This document shows positions 838-62,466 of a stretch of DNA of 64,000 nt, piece by piece; position 1 is the stretch's first letter; each line of letters begins with the position of its first letter. Under the pieces are notes generated by a model that saw nothing but the letters and a program-made list of their open reading frames with translations, did not search any database and was not told where the DNA came from. A program made the translations under genes and the position numbers. Origin of the DNA: Sugiyamaella lignohabitans (Eukaryota; Ascomycota; Dipodascomycetes; Dipodascales; Trichomonascaceae); NCBI RefSeq assembly GCF_001640025.1, contig NC_031674.1:1178001-1242000 (forward strand). Direction: 5' to 3'.

Positions 838-898
838 GCCTCCGGCGGCTGGGGCTCCGCCCCAGACCCTGGTTGCTCCTCTCGCTGCGCTCGAGTCG
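838..898 (+). repeat. GHE module, L type
   Basis: GCCTCCGGCGGC end faces the SDR stop 138 nt away. Hairpin-1 loop TCC. It is followed by a core-like GCGTCGACGG, so a right half appears to be missing. Confidence 0.95.
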
Positions 899-1357
899 TT
901 GCGTCGACGGCGACGACGGTGCTGGGAGGGTTGTTGACGGGGAGTTGAGTTTGGACCCTGCTGTCTTTTGTTCTGCGTTACGTGTGTTCTGACATAAGCA
1001 GGTGGAGGTACAATATCAGCTCAATTTATACCACCGGTAATTCTATTATCTAAGCTGTAAAATACATAATTATGGAAAACCAAAAGAGTGTCTGTTGGAG
1101 CACTTATGGCTTTAAAATTGTTTTCTCAAAAAAATATCTTCAGAGCTCGGAGTCAAATTGGTAGCTAATGCAAATTCTTGAGAGAACGCCGAAAAAGGTG
1201 TTCTACAGAGGGTGAATCCGGTGGCTGGTGTCCTAATATTGAAGACACGAACCATTTAACAGTTAGTATACGTATTTTGGCATCGTTTAATATTAGATTT
1301 GGCTCCTATATTCTGGATTGACGTTGGGAATCATAACATATTCCACCCCCCCACGCA

Positions 1358-1418
1358 CGACTCGAGCGCAGCGAGAGGAGCAACCAGGGTCTGGGGCGGA
1401 GCCCCAGCCGCCGGAGGC
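1358..1418 (-). repeat. GHE module, L type
   Basis: Complete reverse-orientation module, not next to any minus-strand stop. It may be the far end of a long pair with 838-898. Confidence 0.95.
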
Positions 1419-1986
1419 AGACCCCCATCCACAGTGAAGCCCAGAGAAACCCCACGAATCCACCTGGCGGACCGGTGCTACCCCTGAGACTTCCCTATTG
1501 GGTTAGAGAGCTCGGTGCTCAGGGACCCTGAAAATAGGATTTAATTATGCAGTTGACTGCGGTCAGTAATAATTAATAATGAATGACAAGCGGGTGTCAA
1601 AGGTGTGGCGGTTATTAGAGAAAGAGCGGGTTTGGTAGGTCCGAGTGGTCACTGGCCGGAGTTGGGTGCCGGTGATACGCACGAGAAACTTCCAGCAATA
1701 GGCAGAATGCTTATCCGTACATGAGTGAGGCTGACAGATGGCCCAATAAATAAGCATGTATCAATCAGCATTTACTAAAGTCCATACAAAGAGAAGGATC
1801 GGCGGGATGAGAAGGCCGCGGAGTGTGTGTAGAGAGGGTACGGCGCTAGCAATTAGTTGTAAAGTTTCAGCTCAGTTTACTAAGACCTTACCAATGTGTG
1901 GAATAATGGAGAGACCATCACTGAAAGGGCCCAGATGCAGGTTCAAGGTGGAGTCGACAGGGTAATGGAGCAAAGGTGTCGATGAG

Positions 1987-1994
1987 TATAAATA
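1987..1994 (+). promoter_or_regulatory. TATA box candidate, pirin gene
   Basis: TATAAATA, 42 nt upstream of the ATG at 2036 and about 230 nt upstream of the ATG at 2225. It sits inside the longest open frame, which argues against the earlier ATG at 1982 being the start. Confidence 0.5.
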
Positions 1995-2035
1995 CAACAC
2001 AAGAGGCCAAGGATGGGGAACTTTTTTTTTTTAAA

Positions 2036-3154: not shown

Positions 3155-3304
3155 ACCCCATCTCTAGCCACTACCACTTGTCTACTCTGTTTCTATATAT
3201 ACATATTTATTTATTCACATTGTAATAAAAATCACATTGACAACTCCACTGCCACATGCCTCCGGTGGCTGACTGCTCTACTTTCTCCGTCGGCGGGACG
3301 GTCC

Positions 3305-3447
3305 GCCTCCGGCGGCTGGGGCTCCGCCCCAGACCCTGGTTGCTCCTCTCGCTTCGCTCGAGTCGTTTTTCGAGGAGCCGGCAGGGCAGAAATCTCCTGC
3401 GAAGCAGGAGCCACGGGGTCTGGGGCGGAGCCCAAGCCGCCGGAGGC
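3305..3447. repeat. GHE composite, L + R
   Basis: L module 3305-3365 on + and R module 3394-3447 on -, with a diverged core between them. The left GCCTCC end faces the pirin stop 150 nt away. One base of the right hairpin 1 is changed (GGAGCCCAAG). Confidence 0.95.
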
Positions 3448-4496
3448 ACATCTGGAGAGCTGAGACATGTGCCGGATTAACCCTGATCGGCAGTGCTAGC
3501 GCGACAGTTAATCCGAGACGCAGGGGCAGCGCCAGATCTCCTAACGGTTTTTGTGGACTGGTGAGATCTGCTCGTGACAGGGCCACACTGCTAGATACAA
3601 AAAAATTAATTAAATACGAATATAATAACAGCTACAGACTTGAGACAGATGGTCACCACAGCCAAATGCCGAATTTGGGCTTTACTTGGCTACATTTGTT
3701 TATTAGATTTAGATCGGGTGGCTCTGATACGTGTTAGGGGGGAGGTTCTGTTAAGTCTATAAAACGAAATAATTAACGAGTAGGAGCAGCCAATGAGTGA
3801 CACTTATTAAGGTATTATGCCATGCGGTTGTGAATAGGGCTGTCCTATAATTTTACGTGTAATTTTTAAGTTTCAGATGATGCATTTTGCTTAGTCCACA
3901 ATCCAAATATGTACAACAGCAGTGCATATTCATATTCGTACTCGTACTCTATCAGGCAAAAAAAATTGAATTTGCTCGCAACTCGGCTGTGCCATGGCAA
4001 CCGCAGTCAGACGCGCATCACAGCAAAGTATTTTGCAGTTCAGATCTTGTTTCCAGGTCGCGTAGCAGTCCTGCGAATGGTCGCCTATCCCCCACTCCCA
4101 CCATTGTAGTATGGCGAAGATCAGACAAGAGAGCGGAGCAGATTCAGACGATGCTTATTATGATGCCAGCAAGCAGGCCCACTATAGATCAGTTCGAAAG
4201 TGAGAAACAAGCTTAAAGCAGTTTAACTTCGAAAGACCAGAAAACTGTGTATAATCAACTTATTTCGGATACGACTGTTGACAAGGCGTCTGCAGTCAAA
4301 TGAAAAAAAAGGACTCGTCTCACCAAACTAAATCAAACTACTGAAAAATATGTAAGCACGACAACTGGCACGTCCACTAGCGCCAAAAGTGTTTCAAAAG
4401 CACATAAAGTAAAACATGCAGGGCCCAACGGAATACAAGCAGACCCCTGAGACATTGCTCGACAACCCGAGCAACAACCTTCACAAGAACCCAGCA

Positions 4497-4547
4497 GCTC
4501 GCGAAGCGAGCACAACCAGGTCTGGGCGGAGCCCAGCCGCCGGAGGC
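4497..4547 (-). repeat. GHE module, B type, short stem
   Basis: Second hairpin GCTCGC-GAA-GCGAGC. Hairpin 1 is one base pair shorter on both sides (CTGGGC..GCCCAG), so pairing is kept. Confidence 0.9.
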
Positions 4548-5243
4548 AAATCCTCACCCCCCAAAAAACCCCCACTACGGCCGGTTGGAGCACTACAACC
4601 GACCCGAGAAAGAGGTTTAGAAGCACCTGCAACGGGTACCTGATCACTGCTAAGATGCCCGTTTTAGTCGAAACGGGCATTTGCATTGGTGATATAAATA
4701 GCGACGAGGCGAGAATTTTTAGCCGCATCTGATATCATTTGATGCCTGAAAAAGCAAATGATGCTACCGATATGCTGGAGCCCATGTATCTAGAAATTTG
4801 CCAGGGAGTTTTTCGCGACCAGTCAGCTGAAGATCTGCTGTTGTTGCCTGCCTGAGTGCGTCATAAGATAGAGTGATTTTGTATATATAGTTAACACACA
4901 AGCCCCAGTGGCTGTAATTCGTAAGATATGAGTATTGCTTGAGGACATTTTGGAAAGAAAATTTTTTTGTTCATTCGAAGTTTCAAGTGATTAGCTCGAT
5001 AGAGATTGTTGGAAGAGGTAGTTAAAGAGTGTATTAAACTATCTGCATTGGTAGGGGAATTTTCTTTTCTGCGTATTTCGACATTACCCCTGAGTTCAAC
5101 TGGACGACTGGAATACGAGGCCAGTTCGGAATTGATTTTGGTTTAGATTTTGCCTTAGAATAGTAAAACGCGCTAGACTTTTAGTCTGTGTGTTAGAATC
5201 AGCGGGTGGAAATATTTGATATTAATACTTGATATTTACATCA

Positions 5244-8285: not shown

Positions 8286-8324
8286 ACTAATATATTACTG
8301 ATACATTGTACTTCTGAAGGGCCT

Positions 8325-8384
8325 GCCTCCGGCGGCTGGGGCTCTGCCCCAGACCCCGTGGCTCCTCTCGCTCCGCTCGAGTCG
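8325..8384 (+). repeat. GHE module, L type
   Basis: Begins 39 nt after the MscS stop with the GCCTCC end toward it. Hairpin-1 loop TCT, hairpin-2 loop TCC. Confidence 0.95.
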
Positions 8385-8450
8385 TTACCTGGGGTACACC
8401 CGCGAACTTGAACACCCCTTCCAAGGTCTAATCAGCTTCTGAAAGTGTCT

Positions 8451-8510
8451 GCCTCCGGCGGCTGGGGCTTTGCCCCAGACCCCGTAGCTCCTCTCGCTCC
8501 GCTCGAGTCG
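8451..8510 (+). repeat. GHE module, L type, tandem copy
   Basis: Head-to-tail second copy, 126 bp after the first. Hairpin-1 loop TTT; stem unchanged. Confidence 0.95.
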
Positions 8511-8535
8511 TTAAGGGGGTCTCCAGATCACAATT

Positions 8536-9120: not shown

Positions 9121-9127
9121 CAAGTAA

Positions 9128-9187
9128 CGACTCGAGCGAAGCGAGAGGAGCCACGGGGTCTGGGGCGGAGCCCCAGCCGCCGGAGGC
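9128..9187 (-). repeat. GHE module, L type
   Basis: GCCTCC end faces the minus-strand stop of the DUF1776 gene, 44 nt away. Confidence 0.95.
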
Positions 9188-9231
9188 AGAACACGGTTAG
9201 AGAGAGTTAAATAGAATTAGCTAAAAGCAGG

Positions 9232-10617: not shown

Positions 10618-11186
10618 TCTAACGGAGACGCCAAATACCAAAATATAGAATCACCAGAAGAATCAAGAAAATAATCAAATAAATCACCAGCAACCAACTT
10701 CTTTATATCATTCAGTAGTGGCAATCAGAAAGCTGCTGTGATCCGCACCGTTAGGCTGCAAGACCTCATCTCACCTAAATGGGTTAGGGTCCGCCAACTA
10801 GCGATAAGAGAACCAAGTCCGATAAAACCCGCTTCCCTTACCTAAAAAAATTTCCTCCAAATCCCAAAACCCGCTGGGACCGTGTACGAGACGACTCGAG
10901 CGCAGCGAGAGGAGCAACGGGGTCTGGGGCAGAGCCCCAGCCGCCGGAGGCATCTCACCCCCTGACTGATAAGGGCAAGGGCACACCCGATAGGACGGCT
11001 GAAAAAAATCTGCTCCCAAACAGGAAACTATTTTTTTTTTTTTTCAGAGATTCTGATTTCATACTTTTTCTCATTCCATTTGATCAGGAACAAGTTTGGA
11101 CAAAAAAGTTCCTCCGAGGTTGATTGGTTGATAGTTTCTTTGAGTTGCGGTTCTAGAAACAGAAGACAGACCAAACACACAAAAAA
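10618..11186. other. Divergent promoter region, DUF1776 / NOG2
   Basis: 569 bp shared 5' region. Contains one GHE L module (10892-10951) and a poly-T tract at 11031-11044. No open frame with support. Confidence 0.7.
10892..10951 (-). repeat. GHE module, L type, in a divergent promoter
   Basis: Complete module with the core remnant CGTGTACGAG on its open side. It is not near a stop codon, so it is an exception to the 3'-end pattern. Confidence 0.95.
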
Positions 11187-13331
11187 ATGGGAACTGGAAA
11201 GAAAGAGAAGAGCAGAAGAGCCCGAGAGGGCACTGAGCTCTCATCGCACGGAAACCTCCGTGTCAAGGGAGAGAATTTCTACCGCGATGGTAAGAAAGTC
11301 AAGAAACTGAGTATGTACAAGGAAGGTCGTGCTCAGAGAAACGCTAAAGGAGAAATCACGCAGGCCGCGTCGTTTCAATCGACCGAGATCCCTAATGCGC
11401 GAGTCGAGCCCAATCGTAAATGGTTTGGCAACACACGAGTCATTGCTCAAGACGCTTTAAACCATTTCAGAGAATCGCTAGGTGCTAAAACCAAGGATTC
11501 GTATCAAGTTCTGTTACGTCGAAACAAGCTGCCAATGTCGCTGCTTGAAGAAGCTTCACACGATGTGCCTACAGTAGACATTCTGAGTAATGAGCCATTT
11601 GACCAGACATTCGGTCCTAAATCACAGAGAAAGAAACCCCGAACCGTAGTATCCAGTTTAGACGACTTGGTGACGTCGGTTGACGAGGATCTGGAAAAGT
11701 ACGAGGAAAACGTCGAGCACCAGAAACTGCTGTCTGGCGCTCTTGGAGCATTTGGCGACAACTCGTCGACGGCCGGTGTGGCTAATACCGACGGGTTCTC
11801 GATCGAGGCTAAAGAACACATTTTCAGCAAGGGCCAGTCGAAACGTATCTGGAACGAGCTGTATAAAGTCATCGACTCTTCAGATGTGGTGATTCACGTG
11901 CTGGACGCCCGTGATCCCATGGGTACACGATGTACCTCAGTCGAGCAGTATATCAAGAAAGAAGCCCCACACAAGCACCTGATATTCGTGCTCAATAAGT
12001 GCGACTTGGTTCCTAACTGGGTCTCGGTAAGTTTTGGATATTACGGAGTCGGATTGCCTCCGGCGGCTGGGGCTGCGCCCCAGACCCCACTGCTCCTCTC
12101 GCTGCGCTCGAGTCGGTGATTCAGGGTGTTGTTGTGTTTGCGAGGGTCTTTTTTGCGAGGTTTGTGGATTTTTTTTTTGGGTCAGCTCGAGGCCGGGTGA
12201 CCCCCATCGTTAAGTCAAGACTCTCCTGGGTCCTAGGACCGTTTACCCATGAGGAGCAGCCTGTTACAACTTTGGAAGATCAAATGTCCGCCTAACCATA
12301 ATCCGCCCGTTTTGGGGGGATTCCTGGCGGAACGTTGGTTCGTTTTGAGTTGAGTTCTGAAGACGCAAGTCGCTCCATTTCAGCAACTCTTAGTTATGAA
12401 CCATACACTTCATCCCAACCGACCCGCAATTTTGACCCAGCAAATCAACGATCCACACCGCTCGCGAAGCGAGCACAATGGGGTCTGGGGCAGCGTCACA
12501 GCCGCCGTAGGCTCAACCCCCTCCTCCAAAGAGAAATACTAACACGTTCAGGCTGCCTGGGTCAAGCGACTGTCGAAAGACTACCCCACACTTGCATTCC
12601 ATGCTTCCATTACCAACTCGTTTGGTAAGGGAAGTTTGATCCATATTTTGAGACAGTTTTCGTCGCTGCATTCTGACAGAAAGCAAATCTCGGTTGGATT
12701 TATCGGGTACCCCAATACCGGTAAGTCGTCTATCATCAACACTTTACGAAAGAAGAAGGTGTGTACTGTAGCACCTATTCCTGGTGAGACTAAAGTCTGG
12801 CAATATATCACTCTTATGAAGAGAATCTTCCTCATTGATTGTCCTGGTATTGTTCCTCCTAATGCCAAAGACACCGAGGCCGATATTCTGTTCCGAGGAG
12901 TGGTCCGAGTGGAACATGTCTCGCATCCCGAACAGTTCATTCCCGTGCTACTAGAAAAGTGTAAACCACAGCATCTGGAGCGAACGTACGAGGTTTCTGG
13001 CTGGAAAAATGCCACTGAGTTCTTAGAACTGATTGCCCGAAAACACGGACGTCTGTTGAAGGGAGGCGAACCTGACGAGTCGGGTGTGGCTAAACTGGTT
13101 CTCAACGATTTCAACCGAGGCAAGATCCCCTGGTTCGTACCTCCTCCTTTCGATGACGACGAAGACAAAGACTCGAACGGTTTACAAGCACGAGCTGGTC
13201 GTCTGGGAGAAATGCGGAAACGGTCCAAACGAACTGACGACGATGACAGCCAACAAAAAGCCGAATCCAAAAAGACAAAAACCGCTGCCAGCGACGAAGA
13301 GGCCGAGGAGTGGACCGGGCTCTCGCAATAG
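11187..13331 (+). CDS. NOG2: NOG2, nucleolar GTPase of 60S assembly; exons 11187-12026 and 12552-13331
   Basis: Circularly permuted GTPase required for late pre-60S maturation and export. The spliced product is 539 aa (S. cerevisiae Nog2 is 486 aa). Exon 1 gives [27 protein letters not shown] (about 236) and the G4 motif NKCDLVP (about 271). Exon 2 restarts in phase with [19 protein letters not shown], followed by the G1 loop GYPNTGKSS (about 331) and G3 DCPG (about 376). The donor GTAAGT at 12027 and the branch/acceptor TACTAAC..CAG at 12538-12551 restore the conserved W-V-x-A-A-W-V-K run across the junction. The tail is acidic and basic. The intron is the longest in the window and carries repeat copies. 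The homologous S. cerevisiae intron encodes snR191. Confidence 0.95.
12056..12115 (+). repeat. GHE module, L type, inside NOG2 intron
   Basis: Starts 30 nt after the splice donor. Loops TGC in both hairpins. Confidence 0.95.
12223..12331 (+). ncRNA. Candidate intronic H/ACA-like RNA (snR191 position)
   Basis: Two hairpins joined by a hinge. The first, 12223-12256, pairs CTCC and TGGGT with ACCCA and GGAG. The hinge contains AGATCA (12277-12282), which fits the H-box pattern ANANNA. The second, 12287-12331, pairs TCCGCC with GGCGGA below and ATCCGCCC with the G-run below its loop, with an internal pocket. No ACA at the required spot was found, so this is weak. Support comes mainly from the known location of snR191 in the S. 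cerevisiae NOG2 intron. Confidence 0.3.
12460..12512 (-). repeat. GHE module, B type, decayed
   Basis: Stem of hairpin 1 is broken (CAGCGTCACAG instead of CAGCGCCCCAG) and the end reads GCCGCCGTAGGC. Confidence 0.85.
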
Positions 13332-13378
13332 ATAAAACTTAATTTATTATTTAGACCACTTTCACGGGGTGTGACGCT

Positions 13379-13516
13379 GCCTCCGGCGGCTGGGGCTTCG
13401 CCCCAGACCCCGCTGCTCCTCTCGCTTCGCTCGAGTCGTTGCGTCTCGACGGTGCTAGCAATCTCCTGCGAAGCAGGAGCTACGGGGTCTGGGGCAGAGC
13501 CCCAGCCGCCGGAGGC
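13379..13516. repeat. GHE composite, L + R, between convergent genes
   Basis: L module 13379-13438 faces the NOG2 stop (47 nt). R module 13463-13516 faces the cofactor C stop (12 nt). Core reads GCGTCTCGACGGTGCTAGCAA. One element serves both 3' ends. Confidence 0.95.
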
Positions 13517-13528
13517 AAACGGGGGAGG

Positions 13529-15015: not shown

Positions 15016-15387
15016 ATTGCATAGTCTGCAACAGGGTCCGCAACCTGCGTCGACCATGTGTAGTGGATTTGAGTATGACTGGTTGTGATAACAGAGAATT
15101 GGCGTTGTAGATTTTTGGCTTCCTGATTTACAGAGCTAGCAGGATAAATTGACTGAGTGTGAATGGTAAAAGTAAGTGAGAAGGGTGAGATGAGTTTCGT
15201 TTCAGAAGTGAAGAGACTGAGTTACGTGAGTGGGTTCCAGGACTCAACTCGAACGGCATCTCTCCCTGACTTATCAGCAGACTCGATTTAAAAGACTTTT
15301 ATAGAGAATTGGTTTCACAATTCTGTAGTTATATTATTTTTGATGTGAAACTGTGAATAAAAAAAATCCTCTGGCAGGCCCGACGTC

Positions 15388-15447
15388 CGACTCGAGCGCA
15401 GCGAGAGGAGCAGCGGGGTCTGGGGCGGAGCCCCAGCCGCCGGAGGC
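15388..15447 (-). repeat. GHE module, L type, in a divergent promoter
   Basis: Complete module with core remnant GGGCCCGACGTC on its open side. Confidence 0.95.
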
Positions 15448-15691
15448 AGTGCCCCAGAGAACCAATGAATTCACGAGACCCGGAATGTTCTTGAAGTTGT
15501 TATTGCTCAGATGTCGGTCGCGTCTCAGTGGTATCTCGCAGCACGGCTTAATTATATACATGCAGATACTTATGTCCATCCACCCCTGAGACCAGACGTC
15601 TGTCAGTTGCTGTTTATTGTGTGCACTTTGGCTAAATATTTACCTGGGCTTTTGTATTCTGGTGTTGTCACAGTTGGTTGGTGTGGATGTG

Positions 15692-18535: not shown

Positions 18536-18576
18536 TGACCTAATGAACCTGATTTACTTCTACCGGGTGTCGGACT

Positions 18577-18630
18577 GCCTCCGGCGGCTGGGGCTCTGCC
18601 CCAGACCCCGTGGCTCGAGCTTCGCTCGAG
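18577..18630 (+). repeat. GHE module, perfect CTCGAGC hairpin variant
   Basis: Second hairpin is CTCGAGC-TTC-GCTCGAG, a perfect 7-bp stem where the L type has two mismatches. 41 nt after the TBC stop. Confidence 0.95.
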
Positions 18631-18673
18631 TTTCGCGGGGATTCAACGCTGGACTTAAAGTACTCTCACGTCT

Positions 18674-18727
18674 GCCTCCGGCGGCTGGGGCTCCGCCCCA
18701 GACCCCGTGGCTCGAGCTTCGCTCGAG
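18674..18727 (+). repeat. GHE module, tandem copy of the previous
   Basis: Same hairpin variant, 97 bp downstream. The following bases (TTTCG.GGGGATT) are also shared, so the unit was duplicated with its flank. Confidence 0.95.
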
Positions 18728-18814
18728 TTTCGTGGGGATTCTTTGTGAACTTGTGAACTTGGGAAGACAAAAACCACTGTGGCCTGGGCCGATCCCTTTC
18801 AAATTCATTTAAAC

Positions 18815-20131: not shown

Positions 20132-20956
20132 GAGACTGACCAGCTTGAGTCGAGATCATCCTGATTACAAGTCACATGACAAGCCCACCCGAAAGTATCT
20201 GTATCAGAGTGAAGAGATAATTCTGAACCACCTGGAAACTAATTGCCATCCAATTATATCGATTCTATCGGAATATTGAGAATTGACTTATTAGATTACA
20301 TTCCTCAAAAAAACTTCAGCTAAAAATTGGCTGTGAATTGTGAATTTGAGTGATTGGTACAAATGATAATGTAGACGCAGGGTCAGTAGCACATGCGTCA
20401 GTCTGCAAGTTCAATTTGATTTCTATGGCAGCTAAATTGGTTCCATAGCAGTAATATTGGTATTAAAGGCAGTCCAGAGCAAATGACCACGGATATAATC
20501 ACTTGAAACAGCAAAAATTAGTGAACCTCGGTTTCGAGATTAGAATATAGAGAGCAACCCATGAGTCTCAGAAAATCACCTGAGATGTGAACCGTGAAGT
20601 GGGTATTACTTTTGCCATGAACCGACCGGAAATAAAATAAAAAAACAAAAAAAAACAAAAGCCCACTAAACGCAGGAGTTCAACGGCCTGTCACAGGTGA
20701 CCGTAAAAGGGACAGTAATCCAGCCGTGAGACACTAACAGCTCTCACAGACCCATCCTGTCAGCTGCCGGCAGATAACCTAAACATGCATTGCATGCATT
20801 ATCAGCCACTCGGCCAGCCGAGAGAAGGTCTGTCGGTACCACGAGCCGACCCGAGCCCACCACCGGAAAGACCACTGGCAGTTCAATTACCCGAACCTAC
20901 TACCCACCAACACCACCTTCTCCTCCTCCCAAAAACTGCTGGCACTCTCGACGTAA

Positions 20957-21016
20957 CGACTCGAGCGTAGCGAGAGGAGCCACGGGGTCTGGGGCAGAGC
21001 CCCAGCCGCCGGAGGC
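20957..21016 (-). repeat. GHE module, L type, in a divergent promoter
   Basis: Complete module; the open side shows the core consensus CTGGCACTCTCGACGT. Confidence 0.95.
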
Positions 21017-21901
21017 AGGTCCCCCAAATCAGGTGAGAGAGAGAGAGAGCGACCTCGGTGCAGGAGATCACGGCAGCGAGAAACTCCGTGATCACGGGGT
21101 GTCGGTGGCCCTTTAGGGGGTGCTGGTGCGCACGGCTGAAGGATCCGCGGTGTAAGGCGTGAAGGAGAGGAATGGACCTCGGCAATCTGGATCAGGGGGG
21201 CTTGCAGTTAAATGCCGAAGTGGGCTATGGATTACCAGTTCTGGGCCGGTTGCTGCAAAACGGTCTGGCCACTTTTGACAGACGCCAAAATCCATGTGAA
21301 AAAAGGCTCGTTGTGAGACTCTGATGTATGAGGTGATCCTGGGTAGTATCACCGAGGTATTAGGAGGGAGGGTGGATGGTGTGAGTGGAATTCATGGAAT
21401 AAATAACTCAATGGAAATTGTTTGGCCATGGATTTGACGAAGTTGTTGATATGGCATGGACTGTGGAGAACTGTGGGGAAGAGGGGTATGATTTTCGGCA
21501 TGCTAGAGTGGTGGACCAGTTTCAATGTCGGAAGAGCTAGCGGTGAAAGCAGCAGTCATTAGACCGTGGCTGGTAGCCCATTTGTATTTTGTCTCATCAG
21601 AGATGCACTTGCATTTCCCCACAGCGTTAGAAGAGCTCAAAATTAAACTGATACCGCCCCGGTTTTTGATTTCTTTTTTCATTTTTTATGTTGTGGTATG
21701 ATATTTGACGGAGATGGTCATGGCAAAACGGATATCGAGACCGTGGCTCTATATTCAACCGTCTGGACGCGCCGATTATTCTCTTAGCGCCATCAGTCTC
21801 GGCTCATTACGAGGCTCGGCTATTTCTTTTTCAAACGCTTGTTAACCTATAACCCCACATGACCCCGAACCCTGGATGCCGGTCCGTCAGGCACCGGGCA
21901 C

Positions 21902-24251: not shown

Positions 24252-24317
24252 ACCCCTGGCCACGATTTTTTTTCTGTATGCATATGAATTTAAAGTTATA
24301 TTCCACTCTCCTTCTCT

Positions 24318-24450: not shown

Positions 24451-24522
24451 AGCGCCCCCTGTAATTGCCGTATACAGACACATGCAGGGACTGGACCCTG
24501 AGACGCAGGGACCCGGCGATCT

Positions 24523-37756: not shown

Positions 37757-37800
37757 GTTCTAGGGGGGCCCTTCTAAAACCTGGTTTCTTCAGTGGGTGT

Positions 37801-39595: not shown

Positions 39596-39695
39596 CCTCT
39601 CTTTTGTCGTGGTTCTAACTTAAATTATTGTTGAGGCTCACTCGCTTTTATACTTGATTATATTTGGTTGTTTTTTATTCGGGGTGGGAGGACCT

Positions 39696-39836
39696 GCCTC
39701 CGGCGGCTGGGCTCCGCCCAGACCCGTTGTGCTCGCTTCGCGAGCGTTCGGGGAGTGCCAGCAGACTCCTGGAGACGATCCAAGCTGCTCGCGAAGCGAG
39801 CACAACGGGTCTGGGCGGAGCCCAGCCGCCGGAGGC
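39696..39836. repeat. GHE composite, B + B, short stems, between convergent genes
   Basis: Two B modules (39696-39745, 39787-39836), both with 6-bp hairpin-1 stems CTGGGC..GCCCAG. Left end faces the small gene, right end faces the xylulokinase stop (37 nt). Confidence 0.95.
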
Positions 39837-39873
39837 AGGTCCCAGGGAAGAAGAGAAGCTTGGGTTTATTGGT

Positions 39874-42156: not shown

Positions 42157-42502
42157 CACAAAAAAACTTCAACAGCAGCAGCAGCACAGCTTATAGATAT
42201 AATTGATTTTAAATAGCCAAACGCGGTAGAAATACATCCGTAGAAGGATTGACGCGACAACCGGGGAAATGTGGAGAGACCACCCTGGCCCACTGCACGC
42301 CGTGCACTGCGTACACCGGATAAATTTCTGGCTAAAAGGTTAATTCGGGTAAATGCATACTCCCCGCGCATGGTCGAGAACGGAATCGGATCCTGACTCT
42401 CTCGATCCTTCTGGGGGACTGCCTTCTGGTTTCCCTGCGAGCTCTCGTGTGAGCCTTGTTCGGTCCTTCGGAAAGGTTGCAGGAAATCCGGGGACGGAAT
42501 GT

Positions 42503-42557
42503 GCCTCCGGCGGCTGGGGCTCCGCCCCAGACCCTGGTTGCTCCTGCTTCGCAGGAG
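42503..42557 (+). repeat. GHE module, R type
   Basis: In the SPC1 upstream region; hairpin-2 stem perfect. Confidence 0.95.
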
Positions 42558-43032
42558 TTTTCCGTGGCCCTCTCAGCTTCAACTCAAATGCCATATGATT
42601 TGAAAGAATCACTATCCTCACAAGACCACGATCACCTCCGCTGACTGCCACTCTCAAGTAAAATAATTCTCAATTTCTTCTCAAAAAGAGTCGGTATCTG
42701 ATCTCAATTGACTCTGTTAGTCAGAATTTATACCCAATGGCACAAAATTATTTTATATAATTAAGAAAATGCCTTCTGAACATTACGTAAATAGAAGACA
42801 TATACTGCTGCTGATTCATCTCTGTATTGCAAATCTATATAAAATAGCTAAAGAGGAACCAAGATTGATATGGCTAACACTTTTTAGTGAAATTATTCTT
42901 AGCAAAAGCTCGGTAACTCACTTGTCAGAAAATGGTACTCTACGAACCCCGCAATCAGTGAGCTCTTTATAAACATGCGTCCAGTGACTACTTTGATGCA
43001 CCAGGGGTCTCACTTGCATCTTCACCATGCAG

Positions 43033-43122
43033 CTCGAGTCGTTCCGTCGACGGTTCCTGCAACTCCTGCGAAGCAGGAGCAACCAGGCCAGGGTCTGGGG
43101 CGGAGCCCCAGCCGTCGGAGGC
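43033..43122. repeat. GHE composite, truncated L + R
   Basis: Only CTCGAGTCG and the core (CGTCGACGGTTCCTGCAA) remain of the L half. R half 43063-43122 has a small duplication in the link and one change in its arm (GCCGTCGGAGGC). Faces the MCP2 stop, 55 nt away. Confidence 0.9.
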
Positions 43123-43177
43123 AAGGAGGGCGTGTCTATGATGGTGTCTATTTACATGTACAGATTGGGTGGTGGAT

Positions 43178-44974: not shown

Positions 44975-45265
44975 AGTCAACCGTGTTCAATTGCGTTCAG
45001 ATATCCCCCAAACACAATCGCCCGTCGACTCTACTTCAAACGGTCAGATCGGATCTCATCACCCACTTTCGCCACTTCCTTCTGCTGCATATCCCCGATC
45101 TACACCGATAAGATAACGACCCTCGGTCCCGGAACCATTCTCAGCCGTGCACCCTACCTAAACCTTTCGGTGAACCACTCTTCACTCTCCACTCAACTCA
45201 CGAGGTACTTTTCACTGTTGGGGTGGTCTGACGGTCGGGGGATGGCCTGCGAGCCTGGGGGTGCT

Positions 45266-45326
45266 GCCTCCGGCGGCTGGGGCTCCGCCCCAGACCCTGG
45301 TTGCTCCTCTCGCTGCGCTCGAGTCG
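45266..45326 (+). repeat. GHE module, L type
   Basis: Loops TCC and TGC. 292 nt from the MCP2 start codon. Confidence 0.95.
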
Positions 45327-45491
45327 TTTTTTGGGAGTCCCAGAAGCGTGAAGTGGTGTGAATTGAGCGTTTTCGGGGTGGTTGGTTGCCAGAAAATGGC
45401 CATTCAGCCCGAAATTTCACAGCAGAACCAGGGCTCAAGCCCGAAATCCTGCACAGCTGGGTTCCCCGGGCATACGAGGGTGCCCGACACC

Positions 45492-45551
45492 CGAATCGAG
45501 CGCAGCGAGAGGAGCAGCGGGGTCTGGGGCGGAGCCCCAGCCGCCGGAGGC
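45492..45551 (-). repeat. GHE module, L type
   Basis: 117 nt before the RMT2 ATG, the closest GHE to any start codon. It is open in the RMT2 frame, so the open frame runs back through it. Confidence 0.95.
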
Positions 45552-45667
45552 AGACCCTGCATTTACCCCTGAGATATACGGCTACGGAAACTTTTCCCGC
45601 CGATCGCGATCAGCGGGAAAATTTCAGGTTCTCCGTTGTAACTGAGAGTGGTAGAAGAGAAAGAGAA

Positions 45668-46993: not shown

Positions 46994-47024
46994 TTTATTT
47001 AATTCACTTTCTACGGGCCGAACT

Positions 47025-47182
47025 GCCTCCGGCGGCTGGGGCTCCGCCCCAGACCCCGCTGCTCCTCTCGCTTCGCTCGAGTCGTTTCGTGGGAATCTGG
47101 CAGCACTGGGGGACGCAACGCTCGACTCGAGCGAAGCGAGAGGAGCAGTGGGGTCTGGGGCGGAGCCCCAGCCGCCGGAGGC
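47025..47182. repeat. GHE pair, L + L
   Basis: L modules 47025-47084 (+) and 47123-47182 (-), one of the few tight pairs made of two L halves. Left end 31 nt after the RMT2 stop. Confidence 0.95.
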
Positions 47183-47231
47183 AGTTTCAGGGGAAATCAG
47201 GGCACCCCTGCAGGGGCGATCTGCTGCGGGC

Positions 47232-49454: not shown

Positions 49455-49506
49455 ACTCCCCGCTGTAATAATTAATTGATAGACTACCCTTTTACTGGTG
49501 GGGCCT

Positions 49507-49560
49507 GCCTCCGGCGGCTGGGGCTCCGCCCCAGACCCTGGTTGTGCTCGCTTCGCGAGC
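49507..49560 (+). repeat. GHE module, B type
   Basis: 52 nt after the ERG11 stop; second hairpin GCTCGC-TTC-GCGAGC. Confidence 0.95.
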
Positions 49561-50063
49561 GGCTTGGACCGCGGTGGCTAGAATTATCAATCGTGGAACT
49601 CATTCCTCAGATACTGATGGACCATGATACTCTTAATTCGTTAAATTGATAGCTTTTTTGATGCTGCTATGGTTATTAATAAAAGTGAAAGAGTCCTAAC
49701 CGAGGGTTCTAAATCTCGTACTGATTCTGTCAACAATCCTGGTGATCGCAAAAATATTTCTTTGAATTGTAGAAAGCAACCACATTCCCCAGGGATTATA
49801 AGCACTTTAGAAGGTCCGAAGAGGACAATGACAACTCTCTTACGGATCATGCCCTTTGTGACCTGTGACGCTTAAATTAATAGTTCCTCGAGCCTGGATC
49901 TAGTGAGGACTGGTACGGGCGTCTGTTGAATCAGGAGAATACTTCTTGACCACTACGAGTGATTTCTCCTGGCGTCTTACAGGGGTTCTGTTGATACCAA
50001 GGGTGGATCCTACTTTACACTGGGGATCATGACTTTAGGGAAATGCGAGTCCAAGGGTCATAA

Positions 50064-50117
50064 GCTCGCGAAGCGAGCACAACCAGGGTCTGGGGCGGAG
50101 CCCCAGCCGCCGGAGGC
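50064..50117 (-). repeat. GHE module, B type
   Basis: Mirror of 49507-49560; 33 nt after the CorA gene stop. The two may bound a 611-bp unit. Confidence 0.95.
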
Positions 50118-50150
50118 AGTCCTGTAATTAGAATGCTAATGATATTATGA

Positions 50151-53531: not shown

Positions 53532-54332
53532 CTCGAACAGTCTCTCTCAGCACTTGACTCGCTGTCCTGATTACTCTTGTTCACGCTGATCTCTCCTAAT
53601 CACTCTTTTAATCACTTCTGATCACTTCTGATCATTAATTTATAAACAGATCCAATCTGGATACTGGATACTGGATACTGGATATCTAACCTGTTAGTAG
53701 CAGATCACTCGACCTCACCTCCCCTGCCCGCTCTCACCTAACAAGAGTCTACTTCACAAACTAACCACCCAAACTCACCACTGAATCAACACTGAACTTC
53801 AAACGATACTGTTGGATCACAACTGAACGTTCAATCACTAAAATAGATTACTCAAACTTCACGAAATCCGACACTTTTGTGGTCCTAAACCTGATCCAAA
53901 GCTAATGCAAATTTGGTATTCATCTAACGAGAAAGCTTATCGAAATAAACCGCTGCTGCTGATGCTGATGCTGATTCAGATTGTCCGCTCATTTACTGAA
54001 AGATCAAAGTCAGATTGAAAACTCAAAGTCAAATGAGCAATAGAAAAATACATAACAGACTCACAAAAAGCGCGCTAACGACCCTACTGTAAAACCGATT
54101 TACCATGCGCACTTGTTCGTCCAAAGAAGCTCATTCCGGCAGCAAGCAGCTGCTGCAACCTGCTCCTCGAGTTTAATTTCCATGCGCAACCACTGCCCGC
54201 CAGCTCCAGCCTCAGGCAGACCTAATGCACCCTGCGGGCTGGTGCATTTCGCCTGGACTTGCTCTTGCCGCCCGGGTCTCTGATCCCCCTACAAACTCTA
54301 ATTTTCCAGCTGACTGTGGCCTGGGGGGTTTT

Positions 54333-54393
54333 GCCTCCGGCGGCTGGGGCTCCGCCCCAGACCCTGGTTGCTCCTCTCGCTTCGCTCGAGTCG
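54333..54393 (+). repeat. GHE module, L type
   Basis: Flank CCTGGGGGGTTTT; a possible partner is 54743-54802. Confidence 0.95.
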
Positions 54394-54742
54394 GGTTTGG
54401 GCGTCCCAGGAGAGCTTGAAATGGGGTTGGTTGGCGGGTGGGAAAGTCTGCAGTTGGGACTGACTTTTATTCGGTTTATCGGTGTTTCTCGCTCTTAGCA
54501 TCCCGTCTGGGCGCATGAATCCCGTGCATTCTGCTGCCTCTGCTGCTGATACCTGGTCTTCCACTGGCCAATAAACCCCCAATAACGCCGTTATCGCACC
54601 ACCGCCACCATCACCACCACCCACTTCGACCCCCGACCCCCGCTCTTCCCGGCAGTCTAGCCCAAAACACCCCAAAACACCCCAAATCACACCCACCAGC
54701 CTCACTCCCACTCCCAAAAGAACCCCACCGTCCCCCCAAACC

Positions 54743-54802
54743 CGACTCGAGCGTAGCGAGAGGAGCCACGGGGTCTGGGGCAGAGCCCCAGCCGCCGGAG
54801 GC
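54743..54802 (-). repeat. GHE module, L type
   Basis: Outward-facing relative to 54333-54393; 470 bp overall. Confidence 0.95.
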
Positions 54803-54932
54803 ACCAGCCCCTCCCCCGCCAACTCAGGGGGTTATTGTTCCCATTCAAACGGGTCCTGCTGCTGCTCATCACTAATTTAACCTTGCATGTGGATCGGCGT
54901 CCAGGGGCGGGGGCGGGGCGGGGGCGGGGTGT

Positions 54933-54987
54933 GCCTCCGGCGGCTGGGGCTCCGCCCCAGACCCTGGTAGCTCCTGCTTCGCAGGAG
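54933..54987 (+). repeat. GHE module, R type
   Basis: Immediately preceded by a G-rich tract that could form a quadruplex. Confidence 0.95.
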
Positions 54988-55315
54988 TCACGGATTCTGG
55001 AGTCATGTGGATTTGGATTGGGATGAGGAGAAACGGGTTTGAGGCTTTTTTTCACGGGTTCAGAGACGGGGAGGCGATGTGGGGTGACCGGGATCCCGGA
55101 TATAAAAATGTCGATCAATTCATTTACCCCATTGAAAACGGCCTTCCCGACTTGCTACGCTTTTAAGTCTAAATTAGCTATACTCTCTGTGCGGTCCTAA
55201 AGACATCAAACCTGGTCTCAAAATACGTGCTACTTTGTGGCCCCGACACCAGGTGCTCAAACTTCATCATACCCCGCTACAAGCATACCAGCAATTAGCG
55301 ACTTTTCAAGGGTCT

Positions 55316-55456
55316 GCCTCCGGCGGCTGGGGCTCTGCCCCAGACCCCATGGATCCTGCTCTGCAGGAGTCCTCTTGACCTCTACCCCGGCGAAACGACT
55401 CGAGCGTAGCGAGAGGAGCAACCAGGGTCTGGGGCGGAGCCCCAGCCGCCGGAGGC
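55316..55456. repeat. GHE composite, R + L (inverted order)
   Basis: R-like 55316-55369 (second hairpin TCCTGC-TCT-GCAGGA), L 55397-55456. Flank GGTC / GACC continues the palindrome. Confidence 0.95.
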
Positions 55457-56102
55457 AGACCCCGACCGCAAGTGGACCCTGAACCCCGGATCGGCGAAGC
55501 CGCGCGAGCGCGTAGGGATGGGGTTAGGGGAGCGCATGTCACGTTCGGGTCTTTATCAAGTGATGATGTGACTAGGATTGCGGTTAGTAGAAATATAAAC
55601 ATACTTGAGAGGGTTGTGTTAGTGAACCGACGTTGGGAATTAGACTACGCCTGCTTGTCACTAGACCGTGTGTGCCGTAACCCCTTGGATTTATATAAGA
55701 TAGACCTGTGTGAAAGCGGGTGTGAATTGAGTGTTACTTAACAACTGCAACTGCGACTGAGACTGCAACCAGGTGCGACATTGCTGACTGGCGCTCATCT
55801 CGTGAACCGATTATTATTTCGCCGCAGATACACCAGGAGACAGCTGCTGCTGGTTATGAGGTTGCCGAGTGGACTCGATTTGAGACTTTTTGTGCGTGAC
55901 ATTGCCAATTGACAGAGACTATTCGAGTCGTATCCAGGCTTGTGGGGTTGTACCAGTATCAGTGGATTAATTTATCTCAACGGCTTTTTTTTTGAGTAGA
56001 ATCGAAGTTGTCATTGGCATTTTTTGTCTGTTGACTGATTGATTGATTGACTGATTGTCACAGGGTGGTTGTTGCGAGTTTGCGGTTCGAGTCACGTTCG
56101 CA

Positions 56103-58961: not shown

Positions 58962-59011
58962 TTTCTCTAATTTATAATCTGTATATACTGTACTCTATAT
59001 CTTCGCCCGCT

Positions 59012-59071
59012 GCCTCCGGCGGCTGGGGCTGCGCCCCAGACCCCGCTGCTCCTCTCGCTTCGCTCGAGTCG
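59012..59071 (+). repeat. GHE module, L type
   Basis: 50 nt after the FCP1 stop; hairpin-1 loop TGC. Confidence 0.95.
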
Positions 59072-59452
59072 TTGCGTGGGGGTCCCATGCAGGGGCTGGG
59101 CGATCGTTTCTGGAATAGGAAATAGTTTATTCTTATCTGGCTGCCTTATCGCTGCGATCAGCATTCACCAGCCGGGTACCAACGAGACCTATCGGCTGCG
59201 ACTGGTGCCTGTGAAGGACAGATCAGTCTAGAAAACACTCAGACAACCTTCGAAAGCGTTAATGGCTCCTTGCAACTGCTTATTTATCACTGTTACGGCT
59301 GAATAGGATTCGTGTGGTCACCTGAGAAGGACATTAAACGGCAGCTTTATGGCAGCTCTTCAATTAATAGACTGAGCATTAATTCTCAGACCAGAGACTG
59401 AGCAATCCGCTCAATTGTATTCTTTTTTTTTCTTGAGGGGGGGTCCGACTCC

Positions 59453-59506
59453 CTCCTGCGAAGCAGGAGCCACGGGGTCTGGGGCGGAGCCCCAGCCGCC
59501 GGAGGC
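59453..59506 (-). repeat. GHE module, R type
   Basis: Possible far partner of 59012-59071 (495 bp overall). Confidence 0.95.
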
Positions 59507-59737
59507 AGACCCCTCCCCTCAGTTCTTCCAGAAACCCCAAAACAGGTCTGAATCAGACCCCCAGGCCAAAGAGGACCGAAATGGTTCGTGAAGAGGGTCT
59601 GGGAGGCGGAGCGGCATGGCACCCACTTATCCGCCAGTGGCCGATCGGTAGACAACACCAACAGATCCCGTTATTAACGGTAGCAACCGTTAGAGACTAG
59701 CAACATTTGATTTGAGAGTTACAGAGTTTGAATTGCC

Positions 59738-61839
59738 ATGTTTTGCGGGCGAGTGGACAACTCGACAGATATCGACAAGCAGGTGATTGCCTGGCTCGAG
59801 CTGGACAGAGTAAGTGGCCAAACTCCCCATGTCATCTGGGGTGGTCCGACCAGGACTAACAACTCAACTCTAGAACGAAACCACCCGAAACGAGATCAAA
59901 GAACTTGCCAAAGCCAATGACCGTAAAGAACTGGAGAACCGGTTGGGCAAAAGTAAGTGGTGGTGGGGGTATGCCTCCGGCGGCTGGGGCTCTGCCCCAG
60001 ACCCCGTGGCTCCTCTCGCTTCGCTCGAGTCGGGCGTCGACGGTCCTAGCCACCTCCTGCGAAGCAGGAGCTACGGGGTCTGGGGCAGCGCCCCAGCCGC
60101 CGGAGGCATGTCCCATCGACCTGTGGTCTAACGGTTTAGGAATCCAGTTTGGTACTGCCGGTTTGAGGGGCCGGATGGAGGCCGGGTTCGACCGTATGAA
60201 CGATTTGACGGTTTTGCAGGCTTCGCAGGGTCTGGTGAGTTATGTCCGGAATACAGTTCCAAATGCCGAAGCTCAGGGCGTTGTGATTGGGCATGATCAT
60301 AGACACAATTCCAGCCGATTCGCAGAATTGACGGCCTTGGCGTTTGTCACTAAAGGGTTCAAGGTGTACACATTGGGCCAATGTCATACTCCTTTGGTCC
60401 CGTTTGCTATTGACGAGTTTCGTGCTAGCTGTGGTGTTATGGTGACAGCTAGTCATAATCCGGCTCAGGATAATGGTTATAAGGTTTATTGGCAGAACGG
60501 GTGCCAGATTATTCCACCTCATGATGTGGGTATTGCCCAGTCTATTGAAGAGAATGCTGAACCGTGGACATGGGACGTATCGGTTTTGAAAGATAACCAG
60601 CTGGTAGTGGATATTGGTTCTCAGTCTTCGGCAGTGCTGGTGTCGAAATATTTCGCGAAAATGAACCAGGTCCTTGGATTTACAGACGGTCATACTGGTG
60701 GCCGTAGAGCCAGTGCTGTTGGACCGGGAGCCGCAAGGGATTCAATTCAGTTTGTTTATACCCCAATGCATGGAGTGGGTCTTCCTTATCTTCATGAAGC
60801 AGCCAGTCAGTTGGGTTTGTCGGCAAACTCAGTAGTTACGGTCAACGAACAAGCCCAGCCCGACCCAGACTTTCCTACTGTATCGTTTCCAAACCCAGAA
60901 GAAAAAGGAGCATTGGATTTGGCAATGAAACTAGCCGATTCGAGGGGAATTTCTATTGTTCTTGCAAATGATCCTGATGCTGATAGGTTTGCAGTGGCTG
61001 TTAAGGATACCAGATCCGAATCTGGCAAATGGATCCAGTTAACTGGCAACCAAGTGGGCGCGATATTTGCTGACCATTGGAGAACTCGTTGGAAGAAAAA
61101 TGGGGATAAAAAGCTCGCGATGCTGAACTCAACAGTTTCCAGTCAATTGATTGCCAGCCTGGCTGCTAAGTATGGGTTTCATTATGAGGATACTCTGACC
61201 GGGTTCAAATGGATAGGTAATCGTGCTATTACGTTAGAGTATCAGGGATATGATATTCCTTTTGCTTTTGAAGAGGCTCTGGGATACATGTTCGCTGTAG
61301 TACATGACAAAGACGGCATTAGTGCAGCATATGTATTTATTCAGATCTTACTGGAGCTACAAGAACAGTCGACCACTGTATTAGATAAACTAGAGTCGAT
61401 CTACCAGGATGTGGGATATTTCGAGGAGCACAATTCTTATTACATTGTCAATAATCCGTCGACCACTGATACTGTTTTCGAATACATTCGCACTGCCGGT
61501 ACTAGTCCGTCTAATCCACATTACCCTCGCACAATTGGTCGATTCGACGTATCCAGCTGGCGTGATCTGACTACTGGCTACGATTCCAGTACCCCCAACA
61601 ATGTACCCACTTTACCAGTCTCAAACTCGTCACAGATGATTACCGTGACACTCAGTTCACCGGCAAACGAAACTGTGCGATTCACCGCTCGCGGCAGCGG
61701 CACCGAACCCAAACTCAAGGTGTATATTGAAGCCAAGGGCTCTACCCGTTCATCAGCCCAACAACTGGCCGACGAAGTATGGGATCTTCTTCTGAACGAG
61801 TGGTTCCGACCACCTGTGACGGGACTTGTGCCGGTCTAA
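59738..61839 (+). CDS. PGM3: PGM3-type phosphoribomutase/phosphoglucomutase; exons 59738-59809, 59874-59952, 60140-61839
   Basis: 616-aa alpha-phosphohexomutase related to S. cerevisiae Pgm3/Prm15 (622 aa) and human PGM2, acting mainly on pentose-1-phosphates in the cytosol. Exon 1 starts MFCGRVDNSTDIDKQVIAW and exon 2 NETTRNEIKELAKAND. Exon 3 restores the family core as LGKRIQFGTAGLRGRM. The phosphoserine is S155 in TASHNPAQDNGYKVYW, the metal loop D328-P-D-A-D-R. GFKWIGNRA and FEEALGY form the sugar-binding loop, and RGSGTEPKLKVYIE binds phosphate. Both introns have GTAAGT donors and CTAAC branch sites. Intron 2 is mostly a complete GHE composite; retaining it would lead to a TAA at the branch region. 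A GHE pair begins 53 nt after the stop. Confidence 0.94.
59810..59873 (+). other. PGM3 intron 1, 64 nt
   Basis: GTAAGT..GACTAAC..CTCTAG; no repeat. Confidence 0.9.
59953..60139 (+). other. PGM3 intron 2, 187 nt, mostly GHE
   Basis: GTAAGT donor, TCTAAC branch, TTTAG acceptor. The composite 59973-60107 takes up 135 of 187 nt; without it the intron would be 52 nt. Confidence 0.9.
59973..60107. repeat. GHE composite, L + R, inside PGM3 intron 2
   Basis: L 59973-60032, core GGCGTCGACGGTCCTAGCCA, R 60054-60107. Near-consensus. Starts 20 nt after the donor, ends 32 nt before the acceptor. Confidence 0.95.
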
Positions 61840-62466
61840 ATTTTGTATTCTATTTTTATTTTATTTATTATCTCAGGGTCCAGTCAGGGTGTGCCTCCGG
61901 CGGCTGGGGCTCTGCCCCAGACCCCGTAGGTCCTGCTTCGAAGGAGATGGCTGGGACCGTGGACGCCCGACTCGAGCAAAGCGAGAGGAGCCAGGGGGTC
62001 TGGGGCAGCGCCCCAGCCGCCGGAGGCAGACCCTGACTGGACCCTTTTTCGATATTCGGCTAACCGGTCAACCGGTCCTCCGGCACGTGCAGCAACGAAA
62101 CGCAGGGGGAAGGTACATAAGGCTGACGGTGCTATTAACGTGGCTTCGGCAGATCAATATTTGGACTGCTGAGAACAGTAGTGAGCAGGCAGGTCTGAGA
62201 GACAATTCTAGTCACAGTCGAACTTGCGTGGTTTCAAACGTTGTTTTTTTTGGGTGCAGGCACATCAGCAGACGGTGGAGAAAGACACGCGAGCTTTTGA
62301 AATAACCACCGACAAAAACACCCAAGTTCTGTTTTTTACTTGCATTCCGTCCGTCGGTAGTACTTATCCGTTTGGGTGTCATTTTCCAGTTTCTACCGTC
62401 GCTTGTCACGGGTCCTAAACATTGGGTCTGGACCACACAGCCGAGTGGGTCTCGCTGTTGTAAATT
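61840..62466. other. Intergenic PGM3 / ANP1
   Basis: GHE composite in a 16-bp extended palindrome, then the ANP1 promoter with a CACGTG box near 62083-62088 and two ACCGGTC repeats just before it. Confidence 0.75.
61875..62045. repeat. GHE composite R + L with 16-bp perfectly inverted host flanks
   Basis: Element 61893-62027 (R-like 61893-61946, L 61968-62027). Outside it, AGGGTCCAGTCAGGGT (61875-61890) and its exact reverse complement (62030-62045) continue the palindrome. Confidence 0.95.

Follow-up and report, generated by a model that had tools for sequence, protein, structure and literature searches.

Outward-facing hairpin modules in the nuclear genome of Sugiyamaella lignohabitans and a mirrored strand-specific footprint in the flanking silent sites

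The window analysed here is a 64,000-nt stretch of Sugiyamaella lignohabitans DNA (C2:1178001-1242000, contig NC_031674.1) containing, among others, the genes NOG2, PFA5 and ERG11, genes encoding tubulin cofactor C, an acyl-CoA oxidase, an FGGY kinase (XKS1) and a CorA-like protein, and a phosphoglucomutase-like gene identified by its Pfam PGM_PMM domains. Its non-coding DNA contains many copies of a module of about 62 nt, one end of which, the head, carries GCCTCC. The initial annotation described these modules as marks of gene 3' ends, always in the same orientation. That observation is right and its stop-codon framing is too narrow: the key features are an outward orientation from non-coding DNA, toward starts as well as stops, and a mirrored strand-specific footprint in the flanking sequence.

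Module anatomy and placement

The main sample is a 264 kb block formed by the window and the next 200 kb, from a genome of 15,932,016 bases in 4 contigs; a separate check sample contains 62.8 kb of contig C1. In the block, 91 genes were called mechanically as open reading frames (ORFs), 22 inside the window and 69 in the next 200 kb. The caller ignores introns and overlooks some genes: it missed two previously noted window genes, PFA5 (ORF 24625-25791, module head at 24577) and a small gene before XKS1 (stop at about 39594, module head at 39695), and one of its ORF ends is an intron artefact. Sequences matching the 19-base core TGCCTCCGGCGGCTGGGGC with up to 4 mismatches were counted as modules. 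The window shows 68 matches, of which one at 26042 was dropped as spurious, leaving 67, and the block shows 170 modules and no match to the reversed core used as a control. Exact cores number 5342 genome-wide (2675 forward and 2667 reverse), against no exact copy of the reversed control. On contig C1 the distribution is patchy, the forward copies listed leaving gaps of tens of kb, such as 116-165 kb and 262-293 kb.

Each module shows three small hairpins in a constant order: TGCCTCCGGCGGC is followed by TGGGGC-NNN-GCCCCA and GACCC, and after a short linker comes the third hairpin, of which there are several types (A-D). In the block, 90 of the 170 modules are paired into 45 composites and 80 are solo. 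A composite has two modules tail to tail, with the GCCTCC ends outward, in one long foldback, mostly 135-146 bp in length (mode 138 bp), and 34 of the 45 join a type A and a type B module. Nearly all combinations of linker and third hairpin are found (A with CNNNG 65 and with TGGTT 12, B 29 and 17, C 3 and 7, respectively), and this almost free combination suggests sequence exchange between module copies. Extension of the palindrome into the flanks is not general, since, compared with shuffled pairs, only 5 of the 45 composites score at the 99th percentile or above, as does 1 of 45 in the direct control. Locus-specific inverted flanks lengthen some composites by 11-27 nt (61892-62028, 32137-32277 and block 244174-244311), as template switching would. 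Decay of the stop-distal half of composites was considered and rejected, with 1.46 mismatches in proximal and 1.42 in distal halves of 26 composites. Two type A modules at 37800-38405 make up an inverted repeat (80 nt, 95%) that encloses 454 nt of unrelated, AT-rich sequence, with a degraded type B hairpin after the left module. About 12 nt rich in G (GGGGG..TC) lie directly before the TGCC head, opposite to the gain of C found further out. A search of Rfam gave no match to the module and only snR191, phage and plasmid collections gave no match to the composite, literature searches by sequence string gave no paper for the two 23-mers and no relevant title among 20 of the 82 hits to the short strings, and keyword searches listed no description of the repeat, whose absence from print is not claimed.

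The units of the window, and the exon used below as a worked example, are as follows (coordinates, strand, description; a dot marks features without strand).

3304..3448 (.) composite, tail to tail, heads outward
13378..13517 (.) composite in the gap where NOG2 and the tubulin cofactor C gene converge
24317..24451 (.) composite beyond the stop of the acyl-CoA oxidase gene
26091..26228 (.) composite
29423..29572 (.) composite
31244..31383 (.) composite
31802..31945 (.) composite
32137..32277 (.) composite, flanks lengthen palindrome by 11 nt
32804..32943 (.) composite
35487..35624 (.) composite
39695..39837 (.) composite, C/C type, where the small gene and the FGGY kinase gene converge
47024..47183 (.) composite, A/A type
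55315..55457 (.) composite
59972..60108 (.) composite in phosphoglucomutase-like intron, DNA fold -71.1 kcal/mol, z -13.3
61892..62028 (.) composite past phosphoglucomutase-like stop, flanks lengthen palindrome by 16 nt
837..898 (+) solo, type A, faces stop 699
1358..1419 (-) solo, type A
4487..4548 (-) solo, type C
8324..8385 (+) solo, type A, faces stop 8285
8450..8511 (+) solo, type A, 34 nt identical to Solidesulfovibrio copy
9127..9188 (-) solo, type A, faces stop 9232
10891..10952 (-) solo between divergent genes, faces NOG2 start
12055..12116 (+) solo in NOG2 intron, faces exon 1
12452..12513 (-) solo in NOG2 intron, faces exon 2
15387..15448 (-) solo between divergent genes, faces a start
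18576..18637 (+) solo, type D, faces stop 18535
18673..18734 (+) solo, type D, tandem copy of 18576..18637
20956..21017 (-) solo between divergent genes
24516..24577 (-) solo, type B, faces PFA5 stop
25906..25967 (+) solo, type A
27960..28021 (+) solo, type A, faces stop 27914
28654..28715 (-) solo, type B
30019..30080 (+) solo, type B
33226..33287 (-) solo, type A
36339..36400 (-) solo, type A, upstream of dihydrouridine synthase gene
37696..37757 (+) solo, type A, faces stop 37629
37800..37861 (+) solo, type A, 80-nt inverted repeat with 38405
38344..38405 (-) solo, type A
38828..38889 (-) solo, type C
42502..42563 (+) solo, type B
43062..43123 (-) solo, type B, faces stop 43178
45265..45326 (+) solo, type A
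45491..45552 (-) solo, type A, faces gene at 45668
49506..49567 (+) solo, type C, faces P450 (ERG11) stop 49454
50057..50118 (-) solo, type C, faces CorA-like stop 50151
54332..54393 (+) solo, type A
54742..54803 (-) solo, type A
54932..54993 (+) solo, type B
59011..59072 (+) solo, type A, faces stop 58961
59446..59507 (-) solo, type B
62514..62575 (-) solo, unclassified tail
62593..62654 (+) solo, type C
60139..61836 (+) exon 3 of phosphoglucomutase-like gene, worked footprint example, starts 31 nt past intronic composite

Modules gather past stop codons. In the window, 18 of the 22 called ORFs show a module within 300 nt of the stop, all 18 with the head toward it (10 solo, 8 composite), and a 19th shows one at 334 nt facing away, an artefact because this ORF end (12119) falls inside the NOG2 intron. 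After adding PFA5 and the small gene and dropping the artefact, the annotated figure of a module past the stop in 20 of 23 genes is reproduced with the same three exceptions, VPS28, SPC1 and ANP1; the window edge, given as the reason for ANP1, does not account for it, since in the joined block the nearest downstream module is 7694 nt off. The chance of 1 in 2^20 attached to the constant orientation is overstated, since 15 of the window units are composites, which are symmetric and have GCCTCC at either outer end: pointing toward the stop is automatic for them, and only solos inform. Across the block, a module lies within 150 nt of 51 of the 91 ORF ends (16 of 22 in the window, only 35 of 69 in the next 200 kb). 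Counted by unit centres, 45 of the 91 ORFs have a unit in the 150 nt after the stop, and 12 have one in the 150 nt before the start. In tandem gaps, unit positions lean toward the stop (Kolmogorov-Smirnov p 0.008). Solos within 150 nt of a stop number 21 toward and three away (n=24; binomial p 0.0003), of which 11 and three, respectively, belong to the next 200 kb. On contig C1, 15 stops have their nearest module at 150 nt or less: 13 of these modules point toward the stop (five solo, eight composite) and two, both solo, point away.

Starts are faced as well. Solos at most 400 nt from the nearest coding boundary face it in 29 of 33 cases at stops and 14 of 16 at starts (pooled, 43 of 49, p 6e-8), whereas for all 80 solos the figures are 58 facing and 22 away. 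These totals leave 15 facing and 16 not facing among the 31 solos farther than 400 nt from a boundary, for which another tally is 14 and 17. Seven tandem gaps hold one solo: three of these face the stop and four the next start. The orientation is non-random at stops, as annotated, but is not specific to them, since solos face starts as consistently. Two of the 170 block modules lie inside called ORFs, one of these in a read-through intron. The enrichment past stops stands, but two window introns, far from gene ends, hold modules as well: the NOG2 intron (about 12027-12551) holds those at 12055 (+) and 12513 (-), with heads to the two exons, and the intron of about 187 bp in the phosphoglucomutase-like gene (about 59953-60139) consists largely of composite 59972-60108. 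The splice sites of both introns were read from sequence rather than RNA. The rule is that heads point out of non-coding DNA; it is no 3'-end signal. The NOG2 intron also contains an snR191 H/ACA snoRNA (Rfam match 12200-12410), flanked by the two outward-facing modules, and a search of the PDB with the phosphoglucomutase-like protein at 1e-20 gave no match.

The silent-site footprint

Near modules, third codon positions change and first and second positions change little. Of 45 genes that have a module at the 3' end, 44 show higher third-position GC in the last 100 codons than in codons 150-250 from the stop; of 20 module-free genes, 14 do (p 0.09). Where the module is downstream, C at 2-fold pyrimidine-ending (Y) sites rises from 0.39 to 0.79 and G at 2-fold purine-ending (R) sites stays at 0.41-0.53; where the module is upstream, G at R sites rises from about 0.45 to 0.69 and C at Y sites stays at 0.32-0.40. 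On both sides the change is from T to C and falls, within about 400 bp of the module, mainly on the strand that runs 5' to 3' toward it (the pointing strand), so that the two sides mirror each other. Gene by gene, codons up to 350 nt upstream of a module show a gain of C at Y-ending silent sites in all 47 testable genes (mean +0.36) and a rise of G at R-ending sites in 26 of 47, and codons downstream of a module show a gain of G at R-ending sites in eight of nine genes and of C in three of nine. When module positions were circularly shifted, the two observed gains were reached in 0 of 1000 shifts, and the complementary fractions in 107 and 900 of 1000.

The footprint is kept in codons well inside ORFs (3' side, 0.709 and 0.446; 5' side, 0.330 and 0.674). 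Solos show it on either face, at 0.673 next to the head (n 1622) and 0.598 next to the tail (n 244), and composites show it at 0.731 (n 1535), against a baseline of 0.344. Its decay scale is about 430 bp; the 5' and 3' neighbour bases matter little, and the gain is weakest after G. Intergenic DNA shows it too, except in the first 12-40 nt: on the pointing strand, C/(C+T) is 0.55-0.56 at 40-120 nt against 0.39-0.40 beyond 1 kb, and G/(G+A) is 0.46-0.41 against 0.39-0.40 at the same distances. Gene ends with a module (47 genes) show a median gain of 0.32 and a minimum of 0.06. At module-free ends (24 genes) the footprint is absent, with a median of 0.03, a maximum of 0.28 and a next value of 0.16, the maximum belonging to an ORF with a module inside its end. 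A dependence of the footprint on core mismatches was considered and rejected (Spearman -0.24, p 0.10). The 3' side replicates well on contig C1, with C at 0.676 against 0.388 and G at 0.468 against 0.411.

The phosphoglucomutase-like gene shows both sides, and its intronic composite acts as a footprint centre within a gene. In exons 1-2, before the composite, C is 0.76 (n 21). In exon 3, G at R sites is 0.81, 0.63, 0.68, 0.54, 0.43 and 0.33 in successive 150-nt bins and then noisy, and C at Y sites climbs to 0.50 and 0.69 near the 3' composite. Transcription cannot explain a footprint that switches strand within tandem genes; since the footprint switches strand across the module while transcription does not, it is a property at the DNA level.

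Bacterial relatives and known repeat systems

A scan of prokaryote contigs with the 19-base core gave at least 120 stretches. The bacterial set contains 118 loci (116 of 120 bacterial and two of three viral, five being dropped as coding chance matches), and the counts on it that follow hold among the matches listed. The 118 loci contain 226 modules and 85 inverted pairs; 115 exact bacterial copies continue into CCCCAGACCC, and the bacterial consensus, TGCCTCCGGCGGCTGGGGCCnnnGGCCCCAGACCCC, is one stem pair longer than the yeast hairpin. By position, 85 modules lie in tandem gaps, 49 in convergent gaps, seven in divergent gaps, 45 inside predicted ORFs and 40 at edges, and solos within 150 nt face stops in 21 of 25 cases and starts in six of nine. 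Nine carriers contain 107, 77, 16, 14, 11, 3, 2, 1 and 1 exact cores per genome: the richest two are metagenome-assembled genomes of a Sphingomonadales bacterium and an alphaproteobacterium, and the isolate Polymorphobacter multimanifer has 14. One Solidesulfovibrio copy agrees with the yeast module at 8450 in 34 of 34 bases, and a close pattern was found in two of 199 genomes of its order, one copy each. Homology through transfer and convergence on one hairpin design may each account for the likeness; the 34 identical bases, unpaired ones among them, favour a shared origin. A Desulfovibrionales copy starts a few bases from a TAA resembling a gene stop, with its head toward the TAA.

The yeast modules are like bacterial repetitive extragenic palindromic (REP) sequences and bacterial interspersed mosaic elements in being short, palindromic, extragenic and of high copy number (more than 100 per genome), with inverted doublets of unlike types. 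Dispersed intergenic repeats of some Alphaproteobacteria contain the yeast core TGCCTCCGGCGGCTGGGGC..GCCCCAGACCC too, and the bacterial units are mostly in tandem or convergent gaps. They differ in being nuclear, with 5342 exact cores, in a head that reads TGCC with a G-rich flank before it instead of the GTAG-type tag described in PMC2817692, and in the Y1_Tnp domain of the REP-associated tyrosine transposase (RAYT), which was not found in the yeast genome (control detected in 5 of 14) and is present in two of the nine bacterial carriers, not the multi-copy ones. The third hairpin and linker of the yeast module are not shared by the bacterial copies. Mitochondrial GC clusters have been linked to recombination. 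These clusters and the double-hairpin elements of yeasts and fungi are likewise GC-rich palindromes in AT-richer intergenic DNA, as in Saccharomycotina mitochondrial DNA (PMC5499181); the modules differ in being nuclear and gene-facing, with a strand-specific flanking footprint.

Explanations of the footprint

Recurrent single-strand exposure centred on modules fits the footprint best: if the inward-pointing strand were single-stranded and T replaced by C, the observed pattern is predicted. Resection from a break and lagging-strand gaps both lead to this strand prediction. Our preferred version, which has about even chances of being correct, is that modules are fragile structure-forming sites subject to recurrent breakage and resection, with T-to-C repair on the exposed strand. 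A module or composite would leave several hundred bases single-stranded again and again; the exposed strand would be the pointing strand, as expected from a break followed by 5'-to-3' resection, and biased or error-prone repair would swap T for C along it, leaving a mirror trail in coding and non-coding flanks. The outward facing would follow from module polarity matching the polarity of the exposed strand, not transcription; modules would gather past stops as the nearest non-coding DNA that tolerates them, and exchange between copies would keep cores alike. The anatomy, the outward orientation, the mirrored strand-asymmetric footprint and its absence at module-free gene ends are observed; we infer from these patterns the breakage, the resection, the nature of the repair, the homogenisation and a causing rather than marking role for the modules.

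Several observations are consistent with breakage. Composite 59972-60108 forms a strong foldback as single-stranded DNA, with the free energy and z-score listed above. The genome contains a match to the Spo11-type TP6A_N domain (C2:270434-270613, E 1e-15). According to PMC3681665, inverted repeats in S. cerevisiae break and mutate both flanks in a Sae2- and Pol zeta-dependent manner; they share with the yeast modules a long foldback, predicted breakage and mutagenesis on both flanks, and differ in that the motif there was engineered, a 320-bp Alu or longer palindrome acting over kilobases, whereas here there are thousands of natural units of 62-138 bp and a scale of about 430 bp. Human meiotic hotspots show mirror strand asymmetry around break centres, as here, and differ in substitution spectrum and scale (PMC7615360), the present footprint being tied to a fixed repeat. 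G:T mismatches are described as a special case of repair (PMC9001825).

Other observations weigh against breakage and resection. Two solos folded as single-stranded DNA give weak z-scores of -1.2 and -2.4, and covariation in hairpin HP2 is weak, 142 of 170 copies being unchanged and one-sided arm changes exceeding paired ones. At 12-40 nt from a module the pointing strand is rich in G (0.527), and the 3' untranslated region (3'UTR) between stop and module shows little gain of C, perhaps owing to poly(A)-signal constraint. In NOG2 exon 1, C and G both rise by the intronic module. On contig C1 the 5' side shows G at 0.588 against 0.427, yet C also at 0.455 against 0.326. The bacterial copies give no clear footprint with gene ends controlled: in the bacterial set, the 3'-end gain of C is 0.030 with a module (n 80) against 0.015 without (n 173; Mann-Whitney p 0.051), and the 5' side shows no difference with and without a module; raw bacterial distance tables, in which gene ends are uncontrolled, lean the same way as the footprint. 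Yeast break-induced mutagenesis extends to 8 kb (PMC3681665), against about 430 bp here.

A bolder proposal, speculative and rather unlikely as a whole, is that the family is a nuclear, RAYT-free relative of bacterial REP sequences, possibly bacterial in origin, with about one copy per gene and persisting by break-and-copy: a unit would open the chromosome, other units would template the repair and keep cores identical, the resected strand would be rewritten from T to C, and the family would shape codon usage genome-wide. If the preferred explanation is right, one repeat family writes a strand-specific record of single-strand exposure in the silent sites of much of the gene set of one eukaryote, from which the length of resection or fork gaps, their polarity and the repair bias would be readable in plain genome sequence; codon bias here would be partly a scar of adjacent repeats, and bacterial extragenic palindromes would be linked by sequence to a nuclear genome.

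Secondary structures can stall replication forks. Exposure could arise without a break if hairpins stalled forks, left the approach-side lagging template single-stranded for a few hundred bases and were followed by T-to-C refilling. A fork from either side would expose the strand pointing at the module and give the same mirror pattern as resection, and the scale of about 430 bp is closer to a fork gap than to long resection; the solos, however, fold weakly as single strands, and we regard lagging-strand gaps as unlikely, though the best placed of the alternatives to breakage. Capture of modules at pre-existing break sites, which they would mark without causing, is doubtful: the footprint seems saturated next to cores that are near-identical and look young (the core is perfect in 33 of the 47 modules close to stops), as capture would have it, but module-free gene ends are almost without footprint.

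Improbable too is a DNA transposon with terminal inverted repeats, or a miniature inverted-repeat transposable element, in which composites would be the elements, modules their ends and solos decayed ends, repeated excision breaks having made the footprint. The A/B pairing, the modal 138 bp and the outward heads are like terminal repeats, and excision would break DNA at the right place. However, target-site duplications are no commoner than in shuffled flanks (44 composites, at offsets of 0-3 and sizes of 2-10), although old copies could have lost them; the flanks are inverted instead of direct in five of 45 composites, and Y1_Tnp was not found, as described above. The transposase searches covered Y1_Tnp and hAT, and the hAT dimerisation domain was not found in the genome in a search in which no control was detected.

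A 3'-end element, lying within the 3'UTR or directly after it, with a part in termination, cleavage or mRNA stability and an orientation selected in the RNA, is the reading suggested by the initial annotation. The excess of units past stops over starts and the 21 of 24 solos pointing to the stop agree with it, as does AT-rich, poly(A)-signal-like sequence between stop and module in many genes. As an account of the orientation it is not supported, since starts are faced as consistently, introns hold modules and the footprint switches strand, which an RNA signal leaves unexplained. A unit centre is found at most 400 nt past the stop for 58 of the 91 ORFs; 27 are counted as lacking one, and six more as having one only beyond about 250 nt. 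It is quite improbable as the main function, and a side role in 3'-end formation may exist beside the DNA-level property. Finally, codon preference, isochores or strand-symmetric GC-biased conversion would account for the raised third-position GC near modules and are very improbable, since codon preference and symmetric GC bias predict that C and G rise together, whereas each side of a module shows a rise in one base alone, C on one side and G on the opposite side, the intergenic DNA shares the footprint, and codon positions 1 and 2 are little affected.

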